This document shows, piece after piece, positions 3,398 to 21,110 of a stretch of 64,000 nucleotides of DNA; positions within the stretch are counted from its first letter, which is position 1; each line of letters opens with the position of its first letter. The position numbers and the translations under genes were made by a program. The notes under the pieces were generated by a model. The model worked only from the letters and a program-made list of their open reading frames with translations. It was not told the origin of the DNA and ran no database searches. The DNA lies in assembly GCF_000313565.1 (NCBI RefSeq), contig NZ_HE578926.1, positions 173,760 to 237,759 of the forward strand, read 5' to 3'. This DNA comes from Dielma fastidiosa. Lineage in GTDB: Bacteria; Bacillota_I; Bacilli_A; Erysipelotrichales; Erysipelotrichaceae.

Positions 3398-6746
<3,349 letters not shown>

Positions 6747-6748
<2 letters not shown>

Positions 6749-7592
6749 ATTTTGTTTGGTTTTTCACACGATCCGTCAATCTTCGGATATGCAGCATGAA
6801 GTATAACATTTCTTCATTTGACAAATCAATTGCCAGCTTATTATCCAAATATTTCTTGACCCTTAATACACACTCATATGTATCTGGATACTTTGTTTTT
6901 ATTTGTTCATAAAGATAATCATCCTCGCTATCAGAGGGCTGATGTGCCCGCTGCAGAAAGAAACGAATATGAGTGATAAAACGACTGTAATTGATTGATT
7001 CTTCATCAAGATCAATCTTATAATGAAATTTAATAATATTCAGGATGTCTTGAATTACATTGGTTGCCGCTACTGTGCTTCTTACGCCTTCACCACTTTG
7101 CTGGCCATTTACAAAGTGCATGGCAATAAAGCTCGCTTCATCCTCACTCATCCGGATACCCTCATAATACTCAATGATATCCAGACATTTGAGAGCAGTA
7201 TCAAATTCCTTTTTATAGAATTTTTTGATTTCCCACAATAACGCGTTATTTAAACTGTCATTCTCTTTAGCTCTTTTAACAGCGAAATTGATATGATCAG
7301 CCAGACCGATAAAAATCGAATAATCAAACTGGGTATTCAAATCCTGTTCCGCAAAATCAATAATCCGTCTTGTCAGTTCTAACTGATTAACCGGAATATC
7401 ATCAACAAGCTTAACAAACTGATTTTGAAGACCCTTAGAATCAAGTTTAAAAATTTTATCAATCTTACTCTCATCGGGTGTATCGCCTGGCTTCATCGCA
7501 AAACCAATGCCTTTACCCATCAATACTGTTTCCAGCATTTGTTCATCTTCAGCTAGCAGAATATTGTTATTGAATACTTTCTTGACTTTCAA
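6747..7592 (-). CDS. licT: LicT/BglG-type transcription antiterminator (module 1)
   Basis: RNA-binding antiterminator of 281 residues. The N-terminal CAT domain (about 1-58) carries the family sequence KVFNNNILLAEDE...LMGKGIGF that contacts the RAT hairpin. Two PTS regulation domains follow (about 65-170 and 171-281) with the usual phospho-His sites (GLADHINFA, DEASFIAMHFVN, SRFITHIRFF, MLHIRRL). Without beta-glucoside, the PTS phosphorylates and inactivates such proteins; with substrate they dimerise and prevent termination. Translation starts at TTG 7592 after AAGGGGGTG. It precedes its PTS and glucosidase in one operon and probably controls both its own leader and the intergenic RAT. Confidence 0.93.
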
Positions 7593-8038: not shown

Positions 8039-8878
8039 ATGTTGATATATAAAAAACTAAATAATAATGCCATCATCTCAAAGGATGAAAATCATAAAGA
8101 GATTGTTGTTATGGGTAAAGGGATAGCATTTAAAAAAGATATTTATGATGAAGTTGATGAAGAGCTCATTACTGGTATTTATGCCCTAAAGAGTAAGAAT
8201 CAGCAAAGCAAACTGCAGCAGCTGGCTTCTGAAATACCCTATGAATTCTTTGCTATAGCCTCAGATATAACAATGAACGCCAAAAAGATTTTAGAATCTG
8301 AATTAGATGAAGGGCTGCTTCTTCATCTAGCTGATCATCTGCATTATTCATATGAAAAAGATAAGAAAGGGATCAAAACCCCCAATCTGATGCTTAATGA
8401 AATCAAACAATTTTATAAAAAAGAATTTGAAATAGGCATCGCTGCGATAGGCTTAGTAAATCGAAGACTGGGTACTCGTTTAGGTGAGGATGAAGCTGGT
8501 TTTATCGCTTTTCATATCGTCAGCTGTGAAAGTACATCCGGTACTATTGATGCCAATGATTTGCTGATTAAAATGCAGAAAATTATCAAGGCTTTTGAAA
8601 AATATCTGCATGTCACCTTAGATAAAGAAAGCTATGAATACTCACGTTTTATCATTCATTTAAAATTCTTTATGACTAAAATGATTACCAGTACATCCCG
8701 CAATGATAAAAGCTTGAGCGATGATTCATTGTATCAGATGTTAGTTGAGAAATATAAAAATATTAATGAATGCTTAGACAAAATCAGTGCTATTACACTC
8801 TTGGATTTTAATTATGAATTGACGGATACAGATCGTATGTATCTCATTATTCATCTGGCAAGATTGGTTAATAAATAG
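8039..8878 (+). CDS. licT: LicT/BglG-type transcription antiterminator (module 2)
   Basis: A 279-residue antiterminator with the CAT domain (about 1-58: KKLNNNAIISKDE...MGKGIAF) and two PRD domains. Conserved His-bearing motifs are present: LHLADHLHYS and EAGFIAFHIV in PRD1, SRFIIHLKFF and YLIIHLARL in PRD2. It is more diverged from the module 1 and 3 proteins than those are from each other: the CAT strand reads NNNAIISKDE instead of NNNILLAEDE. The start ATG follows GGAGGTGATC. It is intact even though three genes downstream in its operon carry lesions, so it may still control its own leader. Confidence 0.92.
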   Translation: MLIYKKLNNNAIISKDENHKEIVVMGKGIAFKKDIYDEVDEELITGIYALKSKNQQSKLQQLASEIPYEFFAIASDITMNAKKILESELDEGLLLHLADHLHYSYEKDKKGIKTPNLMLNEIKQFYKKEFEIGIAAIGLVNRRLGTRLGEDEAGFIAFHIVSCESTSGTIDANDLLIKMQKIIKAFEKYLHVTLDKESYEYSRFIIHLKFFMTKMITSTSRNDKSLSDDSLYQMLVEKYKNINECLDKISAITLLDFNYELTDTDRMYLIIHLARLVNK

Positions 8879-8938
8879 GTCATTACAGCATAAGGCGCCA
8901 ACGCTGTTTGATATAAATGCAACATAAGGAGATTAACT

Positions 8939-10333
8939 ATGGATAACAATCTACGATTAGCTAAAGAGATTATGAGCCATGTTGGCGGCAGTGATAACAT
9001 TACAGCCTTAAATCACTGTTCTACACGCTTACGATTAAAAGTTAGAAATGAAGAAATTTTTGAATTTGATGAGATTAAAAAGATTGATGGTGTCTTGGAT
9101 GTGGTAAAAGCTATTGGCGGATATCAGATCATCGTCGGCAATAATGTTTCTAAAGTATATAAAGCAATTACAGAGAATTACAGCATTAAAGCCAGCGGTG
9201 AAACCGGCAGAGTAGCCGCAAATCCTTTTGAATTGTTATTAAATACATTAGCGGATATTATGGGACCGGCAATTCCTGCGATTGTTGTCGCGGGATTGAT
9301 TTCAGCATTGCTTACCCTCTGCACATTTGCCGGTCTATCTACGGACAGCTCGACCTATACCATTTTATATGCGGCATCGCAGGCGCCTTTTTACTTCCTG
9401 CCTGTATTAACGGCCTATACTTCCGCCAAACACTGGAAGGTCAGTCCGATTTTGGCGCTGTTCCTAGCCGGTATCATGCTTTACCCTACGCTGATTGAAG
9501 CGGGTAACGCCGGCGGTATGATCAGTTTGTTTGGTCTGCCGGTAACTGCGGTTAATTATTCTACTTCTCTGATTCCTATTATTCTGACAATTTGGATCAT
9601 GCATTATGTAACGGCATTGGTTGAAAAGTATTGTCCGGATGCAATCCGTTATATTCTTGCCCCTTTAGGTGTAATGCTGATTATGATACCGATTATGCTT
9701 TGTGTCAGCGGTCCAGTTGGAGCTTGGGTTGGTGACTTGATGTCACTGCTGGTTACTTGGCTGAATAGTCATGTGCCATGGCTGACAGTCCTTGTGCTTA
9801 GCGCCATCGCGCCTTTCCTTGTCTTAACAGGAAGTCATTTGGCATTAATGCCGCTGTTAGTAGCCAATTTTACCAATTTGGGTTATGATAACAGCTTATT
9901 GATTGCTTTTATCGGCATGAACTTCTCACAATTCGCGGTATCGGCCGCCGTATTCTTCAAGTCGAAAAAACCGGCGCTGAAATCAACTGCCTTCTCTACC
10001 GGCTTGACAGCTTTTCTGACTGGCACGACAGAACCAGCATTATATGGATTATGTCTGCGTTTAAAGAAACCTTTGATTGCAACCTTTATCGGCTGTATCG
10101 CAAATGGTGTCTACTGCGCTCTCACACAAGTTAAAATCTACTCATTTGGCGCGCCTGCCTTTTTAACCTTAGCCAACTTTATTGATCCCGCGGGTTCAAA
10201 TAACTTTTATTTGGCATTAGGCGCAGTAGCCCTTACCATTATCGTTACCTTCATCGCTACTTGGCTTCTGGGCTTTGATGAAAGCGGCTTTGAAGATAGT
10301 GACAGTGAGGATTTAGAACCAAAAAAAGCTTAA
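8939..10333 (+). CDS. Beta-glucoside PTS permease EIIBC, EIIA in another frame
   Basis: This frame encodes 464 residues: EIIB (about 1-90, phospho-Cys in NHCSTRLRL, C27) and the membrane EIIC (about 105-445, with TGTTEPALYG). It ends at a TAA seven bases after an A7 run. The EIIA domain that follows in the other two permeases continues here in the -1 frame. Either the gene lost one A and is split, or ribosomal or polymerase slippage yields both EIIBC and full EIIBCA. If only EIIBC is made it could still work with EIIA supplied by another permease, as is known for some PTS. Start ATG 8939 follows AAGGAG. Confidence 0.85.
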   Translation: MDNNLRLAKEIMSHVGGSDNITALNHCSTRLRLKVRNEEIFEFDEIKKIDGVLDVVKAIGGYQIIVGNNVSKVYKAITENYSIKASGETGRVAANPFELLLNTLADIMGPAIPAIVVAGLISALLTLCTFAGLSTDSSTYTILYAASQAPFYFLPVLTAYTSAKHWKVSPILALFLAGIMLYPTLIEAGNAGGMISLFGLPVTAVNYSTSLIPIILTIWIMHYVTALVEKYCPDAIRYILAPLGVMLIMIPIMLCVSGPVGAWVGDLMSLLVTWLNSHVPWLTVLVLSAIAPFLVLTGSHLALMPLLVANFTNLGYDNSLLIAFIGMNFSQFAVSAAVFFKSKKPALKSTAFSTGLTAFLTGTTEPALYGLCLRLKKPLIATFIGCIANGVYCALTQVKIYSFGAPAFLTLANFIDPAGSNNFYLALGAVALTIIVTFIATWLLGFDESGFEDSDSEDLEPKKA

Positions 10334-10370
10334 ACGAATCAATAATCGTCAGCCCAGTTGCTGGTTCGTT
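10306..10370 (+). other. Candidate -1 frameshift site between EIIC and EIIA
   Basis: Zero-frame codons CCA AAA AAA GCT TAA contain the slippery heptamer A AAA AAA (10321-10327). A Shine-Dalgarno-like TGAGGA (10306-10311) ends 9 bases upstream. Five bases downstream, AACGAA (10333-10338) can pair with TTCGTT (10365-10370), enclosing a smaller CAGC/GCTG hairpin. These are the three elements of bacterial dnaX-type -1 frameshifting. A -1 slip reads straight into SLNESIIVSPVAGS, the normal start of an EIIA domain. Simple loss of one A would give the same sequence. Confidence 0.5.
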
Positions 10371-10782
10371 AATTCCCCTAAAGGAAGTTGGAGATCCTGT
10401 TTTCTCAACAGGATTAATGGGCGAAGGAATTGCTGTATTGCCTGAAGACGGTAAAGTATACGCACCATGTGATGGTGAAATCATCGTTATTCCGCCATCA
10501 CAGCATGCGATTGGCTTCAGGACGAAGAACGGCATTGAAATCTTAATTCACATCGGTACGCAGTCTGAATTGATTGAAAATGAATTCAAATGCAAGGTCA
10601 AAGAAGGTCAAAGAGTAGAAAGAGGCGATTTAATTATGACCTTTGATATTCAGAAGCTAAAAGCTAAAAACTACGATTTGACCACCCCTATTGTAATCAC
10701 CAACACAAAGGATTTCACGGATATCCTCGCTGTTGATGAAAATAAAGTAAAGGCTGGCGATAAAATAATCGCAGTCATCTGA
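10327..10782 (+). CDS. EIIA domain of the module 2 permease, no start codon of its own
   Basis: The frame encodes a full glucose-type EIIA: IIVSPVAGSLIPLKEVGDP at its N-terminus, then HAIGF and LIHIG with the phospho-His. No ATG, GTG or TTG occurs in frame before ATG 10417, which would remove about 24 conserved residues, so the domain must be read through from EIIBC. An oddity is that the residues after the active His read IHIGTQSEL instead of the usual IHxGIDTVxL of the other two permeases, so its phosphotransfer may be altered. Whether it is expressed depends on slippage at the A7 run. Confidence 0.7.
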   Translation, partial: SLNESIIVSPVAGSLIPLKEVGDPVFSTGLMGEGIAVLPEDGKVYAPCDGEIIVIPPSQHAIGFRTKNGIEILIHIGTQSELIENEFKCKVKEGQRVERGDLIMTFDIQKLKAKNYDLTTPIVITNTKDFTDILAVDENKVKAGDKIIAVI

Positions 10783-10831
10783 TTCATGAACCACTGAAAG
10801 ACAAATTGTCTTGCTTATAAGGAGGTCCGGC

Positions 10832-11573
10832 ATGATTATTGATGCCCATACACATATCTGCACAAATAACACAAATCCCATCGCATCCGTTGATCATTTA
10901 CTGGAAGAAATGCATGCAGCAAATACCGATGCGGCAATTGTATTCCCGCTTTCAGATGCATTTTCAGCAAATAAAGAATTAGTTGATGCAATTAAAGGTC
11001 ATCCAAATCTTATTCCGCTTGCCTTTATCAATCCCAATGAAAAAGAGGCACTTTCTCAATTTAAACAATGCATTGAAGAATATGGCATGCGCGGTTTAAA
11101 GATACATCCAACCTTGAGTAATTTTCATATCGATGACCGCAGTAAATTGCATGAATTGTTCAGCTGCTGCGATGAACATCGGTTGAATATTGTGATACAC
11201 TGCACTTCAGATGACCACCGTGTTCATCCTTACCATATAGAAACGATGGCAAAATGCTATCCGCATGCTACCTTTCAAATCGCTCACATGGGAGCTATCT
11301 GGTGCGCAGATCAGGCGATTGAAACAGCAAAGCGCAATGATAACATTTATCTGGATACCGGCATTGCTTCTTTCAATGCCCTGCGCAGAGCGATGAATGA
11401 AGTCCCTGATAAAGTATTAATGGGAGCCGACTTCCCTTTCTATCTTTATGAGATGGAACAAATAAAGGTTAAAAAAAGCAGCAGAATATTCTCAAAATGA
11501 TACCGCGGAAGTCTTTCGCCTTGCTGCCGGAGAGAACTGCCGAAAGCTATACAGGATTGAGGAAAAACGATGA
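10832..11573 (+). pseudogene. Amidohydrolase-family metal-dependent hydrolase, frameshifted near its end
   Basis: Start ATG 10832 follows AAGGAGG. The product is a TIM-barrel amidohydrolase: IIDAHTH (first metal site), RGLKIHPTLS, NIVIHCTSD, FQIAHMGA and LMGADFPF with the catalytic Asp. The open frame ends at 11500 with a foreign tail. After an A7 run (11471-11477) the next frame restores the expected end (VKKAAEYSQND... GENCRKLY) and stops at 11573, overlapping the start of the glucosidase remnant by ATGA. One A too many explains this. The truncated 222-residue protein keeps all visible metal ligands and could be partly active. Role in beta-glucoside use is unknown. Confidence 0.75.
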
Positions 11574-11796
11574 GCTTCCCTGAAAATTTTTTATGGGACG
11601 CATTTCCGCCTGTCAGAGTGAATGTAACTATAATGTTGACGTTGGTTATATGATGTGGGAACTCATCGATCGTATATCGTCAGACAGCTCTGAAATGTCT
11701 AAACGTTACAGCTTTATCTATGTCGATCAGAACGAAGAAGGAAATAACATAGGAAACGATACTGCAAAAATAGTTTTTATTGAGCATTGCATTTAA
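11570..11796 (+). pseudogene. Remnant of a GH1 6-phospho-beta-glucosidase with internal deletion
   Basis: ATG 11570 opens MSFPENFLW, the GH1 N-terminus. After a frame change the text reads ISACQSEC, which matches SANQCEGA. It then jumps directly to the enzyme's C-terminal end: VGYMMWELIDRISSDSSEMS, KRYSFIYVD, ending at 11796. The module 1 enzyme has [20 protein letters not shown] and KRYGFVYVD at that place. About 1.2 kb with both catalytic Glu residues is gone. It sits where modules 1 and 3 carry their intact glucosidase. Confidence 0.8.
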
Positions 11797-11816
11797 ACCA
11801 ATGGAGGTGAATTATA

Positions 11817-12656
11817 ATGCTCGTTAATCAGGATATTGAACAATTAAATGAATATTTATACTGTATAAAAGAATGTGATTCAGTGAATCGCTATGTTGTG
11901 GTGGGCAGTGATCAAGCGATGCTGATTGATACTGGCTATGGCTTTGCGGATTTCCGTCAGCTAATTAAAAAAATCACCGATAAGCCATTAATTACCGTCT
12001 TAACGCATGGCCATCCGGATCATGGTCTGGGTGCTTATTTGTTTGATGAAGTATGGGTACATGAAAAAGATTATCTGCGTTTATTAAAAGATGACAATCA
12101 AGAAACTAAAGCATTGGCTGTGAATCATCGTTTAAAGAAGATGCCAGAATTAATCAATCAGATGAATCCTGAAGTCTATAATCAGAAATTGATTAAGCAG
12201 ACCACATTCCGATATTTTAAAGAGGGTGATAGTTTTGATCTGGGCGGTATTGTGCTGAAAATCATTGAGATTCCGGGTCACTCCTATGGTTCTGTCGCCT
12301 TGTATGAAGAAACAAAGGGATGGCTGTTTACCGGCGATACATTGGCTCATTATAACATCTGGAATCAAATGGATTTTGTTGATTCACCGCGGTTAAGTGT
12401 CCTGATGGCGACTTACAAAAAATTGGCTCAGATGCGGAAGATTGAGGAAATCTACCCCGCGCATGGCGAAAAACCAATTGATCGCGGTATCATTGATGAA
12501 TCAATAGATGGTTTGAAAGACTTGCTGACACATCATGATGAGGATGAGAAAATTGATACCTTCATGGGAACTGCATATAGACACGTTTATAAACATTTCA
12601 TCCTGTTATATTCTAAGGCACATTTAGAAGATGCGTTAGAGAATGGTTTGGAATAA
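11817..12656 (+). CDS. Metallo-beta-lactamase fold hydrolase
   Basis: A 279-residue cytoplasmic MBL-fold protein. The zinc motif HxHxDH is THGHPDHG (H64, H66, D68, H69), followed by the further ligands in IPGHSYGS, FTGDTL and YPAHGE. These place it with glyoxalase II-like or phosphodiesterase-like hydrolases; the substrate cannot be read from sequence. It has its own GGAGGTG binding site and no obvious promoter, so it is probably the last gene of the module 2 operon. It is intact, unlike the three genes before it. Confidence 0.85.
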   Translation: MLVNQDIEQLNEYLYCIKECDSVNRYVVVGSDQAMLIDTGYGFADFRQLIKKITDKPLITVLTHGHPDHGLGAYLFDEVWVHEKDYLRLLKDDNQETKALAVNHRLKKMPELINQMNPEVYNQKLIKQTTFRYFKEGDSFDLGGIVLKIIEIPGHSYGSVALYEETKGWLFTGDTLAHYNIWNQMDFVDSPRLSVLMATYKKLAQMRKIEEIYPAHGEKPIDRGIIDESIDGLKDLLTHHDEDEKIDTFMGTAYRHVYKHFILLYSKAHLEDALENGLE

Positions 12657-14112: not shown

Positions 14113-17377
<3,265 letters not shown>

Positions 17378-19661: not shown

Positions 19662-21110
19662 ATGAAAAGACACAATCCCTTAGCAGCAATGTTTATGATA
19701 TCGCTTTTGTGTATATTAAGCGCATGCGGTAATGAGCTTAAACAAAACCATACTATTGCAGCGACAGATAATCCCACAGTTAAAGAATCAAATAATGAGG
19801 ATACAGTTGAAAAAAAGACTTTAGTTGTATATTTTTCCGCTACTGGAACAACTAAAACATTATCTGAACATGCAGCCGATATTCTTAATTCTGATATTTA
19901 TGAAATTGTTCCTGCCATACCTTATACCGAGGAAGATTTAGCATATTATACTGATGGCCGCGCGGATCAAGAGCAACAGGATAATGAGGCACGTCCAGCC
20001 ATCAGTGAACCCATTAAAAATATCGAGCAGTATGAAACCATCGTCCTTGGTTATCCGATCTGGCATGGTCAAGCCCCAAGAATCATCAGTACCTTTTTAG
20101 AAAGCTATGATTTCTCAAATAAAACAATATTGCCATTTTGCACATCACAAAGCAGTGGTATCGGCACAAGCGATACGAATCTTCATTCACTCGCTGACAA
20201 TGCGAAATGGCTTGAGGGCAGACGCTTCGCAGCTGATACGACAAGAGAAACGATTAAGGAATGGTTAGACAGCATGGCTATAAAACCAGATAAGAACGCG
20301 TTTGATTTTGATAAACATGTTGTTAAACTCAACAGCGGATATGAAATGCCGATGATGGGATTAGGGACATACAGCCTTTCTGATGATGAATGTTACAATT
20401 CAATCATTGCCTTGCTTAAAAACGGCGGACGTCTTATTGACACTGCTTATATGTATCATAATGAAGCAAGTGTCGGCAGAGCGGTGCGTGAATCAAATAT
20501 AGCTCGAGAAGAAATCTTTGTAACAACCAAACTTTACCTCACTCAATATTCAGATGCCGCAAATGCCATCGATGAAGCATTGGAGCGTCTCGGTTTAGAT
20601 TATATTGATTTGATGCTGCTTCATCACCCAGGTGAAGGTGACGTCGAGGCTTATAAAGCAATGGAACAGGCGGTTAAAGATGGAAAAATTCATTCCATTG
20701 GTTTATCTAATTGGTATGTGGAAGAATTAGAAGCCTTTTTACCACAGATAAGTATAACACCTGCCTTAATACAAAATGAGATTCATCCATATTATCAAGA
20801 AAATGATGTCATTCCCTATGTTCAAAATCTAGGCATAACAATGCAGGGGTGGTATCCCTTTGGCGGCAGAGGCCACACATCTGAATTACTCAGCGATAAG
20901 ACAATTACAACGATAGCGGCTGCTCATAATGTAACCCCTGCGCAAGTGATCTTGCGCTGGAATTTACAGAAAGGTGTTACCGTAATTCCTGGTTCAAGCA
21001 ATCCCAACCATATTCAGGAGAACCTTGACTTATTCACTTTTGAATTATCACAGGACGAAATGGCGCAAATTAACGCGCTGGACAGAAATGAAAAACATGA
21101 TTGGTACTAA
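19662..21110 (+). CDS. Lipoprotein with flavodoxin and aldo/keto reductase domains
   Basis: The 482-residue product starts with a lipoprotein signal: basic n-region, hydrophobic core, and the lipobox LSAC (Cys about 22). A polar linker rich in Asn, Thr and Glu follows. Residues about 50-205 are a flavodoxin: FMN phosphate loop SATGTTKTLSEHAA, then GYPIWHGQAPRIISTFLE. Residues about 220-482 are an aldo/keto reductase: GLGTYSL, DTAYMYHNE (catalytic Tyr), TKLYL (catalytic Lys), LLHHP (catalytic His) and IPGSSNP for NADP binding. Start follows AAAGGAG. Placing an NAD(P)H-type enzyme outside the membrane is odd, so either the lipobox is not processed or electrons come from elsewhere. Confidence 0.85.
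   Translation: MKRHNPLAAMFMISLLCILSACGNELKQNHTIAATDNPTVKESNNEDTVEKKTLVVYFSATGTTKTLSEHAADILNSDIYEIVPAIPYTEEDLAYYTDGRADQEQQDNEARPAISEPIKNIEQYETIVLGYPIWHGQAPRIISTFLESYDFSNKTILPFCTSQSSGIGTSDTNLHSLADNAKWLEGRRFAADTTRETIKEWLDSMAIKPDKNAFDFDKHVVKLNSGYEMPMMGLGTYSLSDDECYNSIIALLKNGGRLIDTAYMYHNEASVGRAVRESNIAREEIFVTTKLYLTQYSDAANAIDEALERLGLDYIDLMLLHHPGEGDVEAYKAMEQAVKDGKIHSIGLSNWYVEELEAFLPQISITPALIQNEIHPYYQENDVIPYVQNLGITMQGWYPFGGRGHTSELLSDKTITTIAAAHNVTPAQVILRWNLQKGVTVIPGSSNPNHIQENLDLFTFELSQDEMAQINALDRNEKHDWY

Follow-up and report, generated by a model that had tools for sequence, protein, structure and literature searches.

In the 64,000-nucleotide stretch of gut-bacterium DNA analysed here (the window), the frame of a PTS sugar permease stops just past a run of seven adenines (A7) and its EIIA domain is encoded behind it in the −1 frame, which raises the question of whether the gene is broken or recoded. 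Comparison with an orthologue from a second genus makes it a conserved candidate for −1 frameshifting of the dnaX kind, with strong support at the sequence level, and we consider programmed slippage of ribosomes that yields both EIIBC and an EIIBC-EIIA fusion the likely explanation.

A permease gene divided at a slippery run

The zero frame encodes an EIIBC permease of 464 aa (8939–10333, forward strand) composed of PTS_EIIB (PF00367) and PTS_EIIC (PF02378). It ends CCA AAA AAA GCT TAA, which places the run (A_AAA_AAA, 10321–10327) in the X_XXY_YYZ phase of a slippery heptamer. The stop codon TAA (10331–10333) occupies bases 4–6 after the heptamer, and not a position seven bases past it as the original prediction had it. 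From the last A of the run, the −1 frame reads AGC TTA AAC GAA TCA ATA ATC GTC AGC CCA and continues as an EIIA domain (10327–10782, forward strand) that matches Pfam PTS_EIIA_1 (PF00358, E = 7.5e-47) over almost its full length. When solved IIAGlc structures were compared, its near full-length alignment to the glucose-permease IIA domain started at the second residue, and both active-site histidines were present. No ATG, GTG or TTG occurs in this frame before 10417, a position within the domain; the first ATG is at 10417, and starting there would cost the first 30 residues. The in-phase A7 and a complete EIIA domain lying behind it without a usable start were as predicted.

The EIIB, EIIC and EIIA_1 domains of a Glucose-superfamily PTS permease all score above their cut-offs. 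The best-scoring model for EIIBC and EIIA is TIGR01995 (PTS-II-ABC-beta); scored apart, the two parts reach 424.1 and 171.7 bits, respectively, below the cut-off of 614.7 bits that is set for the whole protein. Across the 64-kb window, the 62 ORFs of at least 100 aa contain 12 in-phase A_AAA_AA[A/G] heptamers, and only the one at 10321–10327 opens more than 35 −1 codons (151).

The gene belongs to an operon (8039–12656, forward strand) headed by a BglG/LicT-type antiterminator (8039–8878; CAT_RBD and PRD in Pfam). Behind EIIA follow an amidohydrolase (10832–11500), the remnant of a GH1 6-phospho-beta-glucosidase (11570–11796) and, at the end of the conserved operon, a metallo-beta-lactamase-fold hydrolase recognized by Pfam (11817–12656). 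Further upstream, a sub-threshold match to the bglG-cis-reg RNA (RF03530; 7595–7704, minus strand; 35 bits, with a cut-off of 80) precedes a divergent antiterminator gene (6747–7592). Elsewhere in the window, an ORF at 19662–21110 consists, as judged by eye, of a lipoprotein-like N-terminus, a flavodoxin-like part and an aldo/keto reductase-like part.

Conservation in Holdemania filiformis

The window genome (3.6 Mb) shares its family with Holdemania filiformis, a species of another genus whose orthologous locus (L006) has amino-acid identities of 66% for EIIBC and 57% for EIIA. The alignment of an orthologue had been named beforehand as a test, and this one displays the A7 run, the stop and EIIA in the −1 frame, not an uninterrupted frame. 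Its zero frame reads CCA AAA AAA GCG TAA, keeping the identical heptamer (L006 5392–5398), the alanine codon and the TAA stop; stem arms 5 nt downstream and a Shine-Dalgarno-like element at a 9-nt gap are retained as well. The conserved site sequence common to the two species is CCAAAAAAAGCnTAAACGAATCAATAAT...CTGGTTCGTT. Among 273 genomes of the family, the string AAAAAAAGCNTAAACGAA is found in only two, both times at these genes, and the reversed pattern, used as a control for this search, gave two stray hits. Another in-phase heptamer, A_AAA_AAG (L006 5371–5377), is present in H. filiformis 21 nt upstream of A7 and is also open into EIIA.

Synonymous sites in EIIBC are near saturation between the two species (pS 0.80 in a codon alignment of 1850 nt). 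The top window of this alignment (mean identity 0.64) is the 49-mer that begins with the heptamer (CCAAAAAAA onward), with 43 of 49 positions identical, a value that no other window equals (1802 windows). Where both species encode the same amino acid, they use an identical codon at 12 of 15 sites inside the 49-mer, versus 166 of 380 in the rest of the alignment (Fisher p 0.006). The three exceptions include the alanine codon that precedes the stop, where GCT has become GCG; this change leaves the zero frame silent and turns Leu into Val in the −1 frame and, being silent only in the zero frame, it fits zero-frame use up to the stop. In the −1 frame, EIIA itself is subject to purifying selection, pN being 0.28 and pS 0.67, a contrast that both alternative frames lack. 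The anatomy of the site, its conservation in a second genus and the selection on EIIA are established.

These data bear on two simpler explanations. Homopolymers are prone to error, and the run could reflect a mistake in sequencing or assembly; however, two independent genomes agree, and an error would leave the conserved silent surroundings and the zero-frame stop unexplained, which makes its probability negligible. The second explanation, put forward in the original prediction as the competing view, is the plain loss of one A, in which an indel would have disrupted a fused EIIBCA gene within an operon undergoing decay. Paralogues with EIIBCA fused in frame occur commonly, and the decay in neighbouring genes is real. 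The amidohydrolase is broken at another A7 run (11471–11477, GTT AAA AAA AGC) with a homologous continuation in the +1 frame; since the intact 250-aa orthologue of H. filiformis is uninterrupted at the matching site, this break is probably an indel lesion. The glycosidase at 11570–11796 is reduced by an internal deletion to its first few residues and the C-terminal piece of the GH1 domain, and is intact in H. filiformis (481 aa, L006 6649–8094). Given this frameshift and this deletion, the operon may be falling out of use in the window species. Both lesions, which the original prediction took to favour the loss of an A, lie downstream of EIIA, however. The same divided state is present in H. 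filiformis, where the protein is 66% identical and the operon is intact, with the same antiterminator as neighbour and the same order up to the metallo-beta-lactamase-fold hydrolase. Moreover, EIIA is under purifying selection, no in-frame fusion occurs among the nearest EIIBC relatives, and the flanking silent sites are conserved. Loss of one A would require an identical lesion and identical silent flanks in two genera; the orthologue goes most of the way to refuting it, and we regard it as very unlikely.

Elements flanking the heptamer

The upstream element CAGTGAGGA (10303–10311, forward strand) ends 9 nt 5' of the heptamer and forms the best anti-Shine-Dalgarno duplex in the stretch (−6.5 kcal/mol); it includes the TGAGGA motif that was predicted at this distance (10306–10311). 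The counterpart in H. filiformis, AAAGGCGGA, yields −7.0 kcal/mol with the same 9-nt gap to the heptamer, and the spacing is identical in spite of differing encoded residues. Among random stretches, 5% are equally good for the window element and 7% for that of H. filiformis. Shine-Dalgarno-like stimulators of −1 frameshifting lie 9–14 nt upstream according to a review (PMC5009743).

Downstream, a 5-nt spacer leads to a stem whose 5' side (AACGAATCA plus TAAT, 10333–10346) and 3' side (GTTG plus TGGTTCGTT, 10357–10370) form 13 pairs in both species. The original prediction of a stem at this distance holds for the outer part, a pair of 9-nt arms (10333–10341 and 10362–10370; AACGAATCA and TGGTTCGTT) that are identical in both species. 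Its inner part, CAGC/GCTG, is absent from the orthologue and is better replaced by a TAAT/GTTG helix (10343–10346 and 10357–10360), in which a U-G pair has become U-A in H. filiformis and is still paired. This is the one consistent change in a stem comparison that rests on two sequences, and the remaining differences, as far as the stem extends, fall in the spacer or the loop. Pairing falls to 8–50% when the stem partner is slid, and the folding z-scores are −2.75 for the window and −2.51 for H. filiformis. The energy of the stem is unexceptional within the gene, with rank 32 of 1799 in two-sequence folding, and about a quarter of single windows in the gene fold as well as the stem region. It is placement and conservation, not energy, that carry the argument for the stem. 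An Rfam search at the site matched no family even at E 10, including the DnaX element RF00382, the covariance model of which was built on dnaX itself.

The same run could act during transcription. If RNA polymerase added an A at A7, part of the mRNA would carry A8, and normal translation of it would yield an identical fusion product. The conservation of the A run agrees with this, and shorter runs may suffice in some bacteria (PMC1088944). Seven A, however, fall short of the run of about nine or more A or T of a transcriptional-slippage gene, and selection against slippage is usually seen at runs of nine (PMC1088944). The Shine-Dalgarno-like sequence and the downstream stem would furthermore be unneeded, yet both are kept. 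Slippage of the polymerase is, in our judgement, improbable.

Proposed mechanism

The features of dnaX-type programmed −1 ribosomal frameshifting found at the locus are an in-phase heptamer, a Shine-Dalgarno-like element at 9 nt, a stem at 5 nt and a −1 frame under selection. The dnaX-like interpretation originally offered for this site gains support from H. filiformis, which keeps the heptamer, the stop, the −1 frame EIIA, the stem arms and the Shine-Dalgarno-like spacing. The arrangement is carried by two orthologues only, those of the window species and H. filiformis. In E. coli, A_AAA_AAA slips less than A_AAA_AAG according to the review (PMC5009743).

From these sequences we infer slippage, its rate, its ribosomal site and its use, as follows. 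The locus would be one recoded gene, on which most ribosomes would halt at the TAA at 10331 and release EIIBC (464 aa). A fraction would slip by −1 on A_AAA_AAA, aided by pairing of the element 9 nt upstream with 16S rRNA and by the stem 5 nt downstream. The slipped ribosomes would read on through EIIA and produce an EIIBC-EIIA permease of about 614 aa. Transfer of phosphate in trans between EIIA and EIIB domains is established for the PTS glucose superfamily. Frameshifting would probably serve to fix how much of the permease is self-sufficient and how much relies on EIIA borrowed from a neighbour or some other PTS protein; one EIIA domain could serve several EIIBC units, and perhaps other permeases that have no EIIA.

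Relatives and further candidates

Searches of the family, order and class returned no third orthologue with EIIA, the genus search returned the window genome only, and no match was found in the viral contigs searched. Four orthologues of about 49% identity (L012, L013, L036, L037) encode EIIBC alone and have no EIIA closer than about 1.5 kb; two from Enterococcus (L007, L008) have an EIIA domain in a frame 5' of EIIBC. In a tree of EIIBC proteins, the window species and H. filiformis form a supported pair, placed beside Enterococcus and the EIIBC-only members of the family. Because the pair stands next to EIIBC-only relatives, EIIA was apparently added, in the −1 frame, to a permease that consisted of EIIBC alone, with the root of the tree being uncertain.

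A survey of family and class identified 115 EIIA frames that look stand-alone, in 107 of which an ordinary start codon lies where the domain begins or upstream of that point. These numbers weigh against the idea that EIIA is translated alone from a non-AUG start (ATA, ATC or ATT around 10342) coupled to the EIIBC stop. Both species do retain, just ahead of the domain, an ATA and behind it ATC or ATT, but AUA and AUC starts are very rare, and a Shine-Dalgarno sequence a few bases upstream is missing. The conserved heptamer, and the Shine-Dalgarno-like element 9 nt before it, would also be left unexplained, and we find initiation of this kind very unlikely.

The remaining eight frames have no start near the domain. 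Half of them (the window, H. filiformis, L058 and L059) overlap an EIIBC ORF that ends in an in-phase A heptamer, and lie in the right frame. As for the other half, in L047 an ATG lies inside the domain, four codons from its start, and L122, L164 and L165 belong to different families of that class. At L059 (G128:C1, reverse strand), EIIBC ends AGA AAA AAA GCT TAA and a startless EIIA follows in the −1 frame; the stem and the Shine-Dalgarno-like sequence are weak, and the orthologues of its EIIBC are EIIBC-only. At L058 (G079:C34, reverse strand), EIIBC ends ACA AAA AAG TAA, again with EIIA in the −1 frame; the hairpin is strong but badly placed, further downstream, and the Shine-Dalgarno-like sequence is weak. 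This locus lies close to EIIBCA genes that are in frame, and a plain indel may account for it. Both are single-genome loci in the family, with neither conserved orthologues nor conserved stimulators, and are leads only. Four other loci were rejected as candidates: in L030 the −1 frame EIIA starts at an ordinary ATG, and L062, L067 and L094 have normal ATG starts.

In a tree of EIIA domains, the window, H. filiformis, L058 and L059 fall in three places. We tentatively raise the possibility that recoding is recurrent, EIIA having been placed in the −1 frame downstream of a slippery site on three or more independent occasions in the family. This might provide a tunable ratio of permeases with and without EIIA, perhaps tied to antiterminator control.

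Significance and comparison with known systems

Few ordinary bacterial genes are known to have a conserved programmed frameshift, and the literature searched includes no PTS permease among them. The GeneTack survey (PMC3711429) and the text consulted of the review (PMC5009743) list no PTS gene as a case of frameshifting, and a targeted search of open-licence papers found no frameshifting PTS gene. If the proposed mechanism is correct, the domain make-up of a sugar transporter would be decided during translation, and annotation pipelines would misread a working gene as two genes or as a pseudogene. The two species provide a test case in which the heptamer, the Shine-Dalgarno-like element and the stem are open to silent mutation.

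The closest likeness is to the dnaX cassette of E. coli, which, as described in the review (PMC5009743), likewise combines an A-rich in-phase heptamer with a Shine-Dalgarno-like stimulator 9–14 nt upstream and a stem-loop a few nucleotides downstream. The same source reports a reversed form of dnaX in some bacteria, in which, as here, the zero frame stops right past the site and the shift gives the longer product. The present site differs from dnaX in that it lies in a PTS permease gene, uses A_AAA_AAA and not A_AAA_AAG, has a stem of 9 + 4 bp and is without a match in Rfam. In copA of E. coli, where one gene yields a copper transporter and a chaperone, −1 frameshifting also sets the domain make-up of a transporter, again according to the review (PMC5009743); the copA shift shortens the product, whereas a shift in the PTS gene would add a domain. 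Finally, the B-C-A order of domains is that of the in-frame EIIBCA beta-glucoside permeases described by TIGR01995, two paralogues of which lie in the window itself (4807–6681 and 14128–15951), but in the gene analysed here EIIA is reached only through a change of frame.
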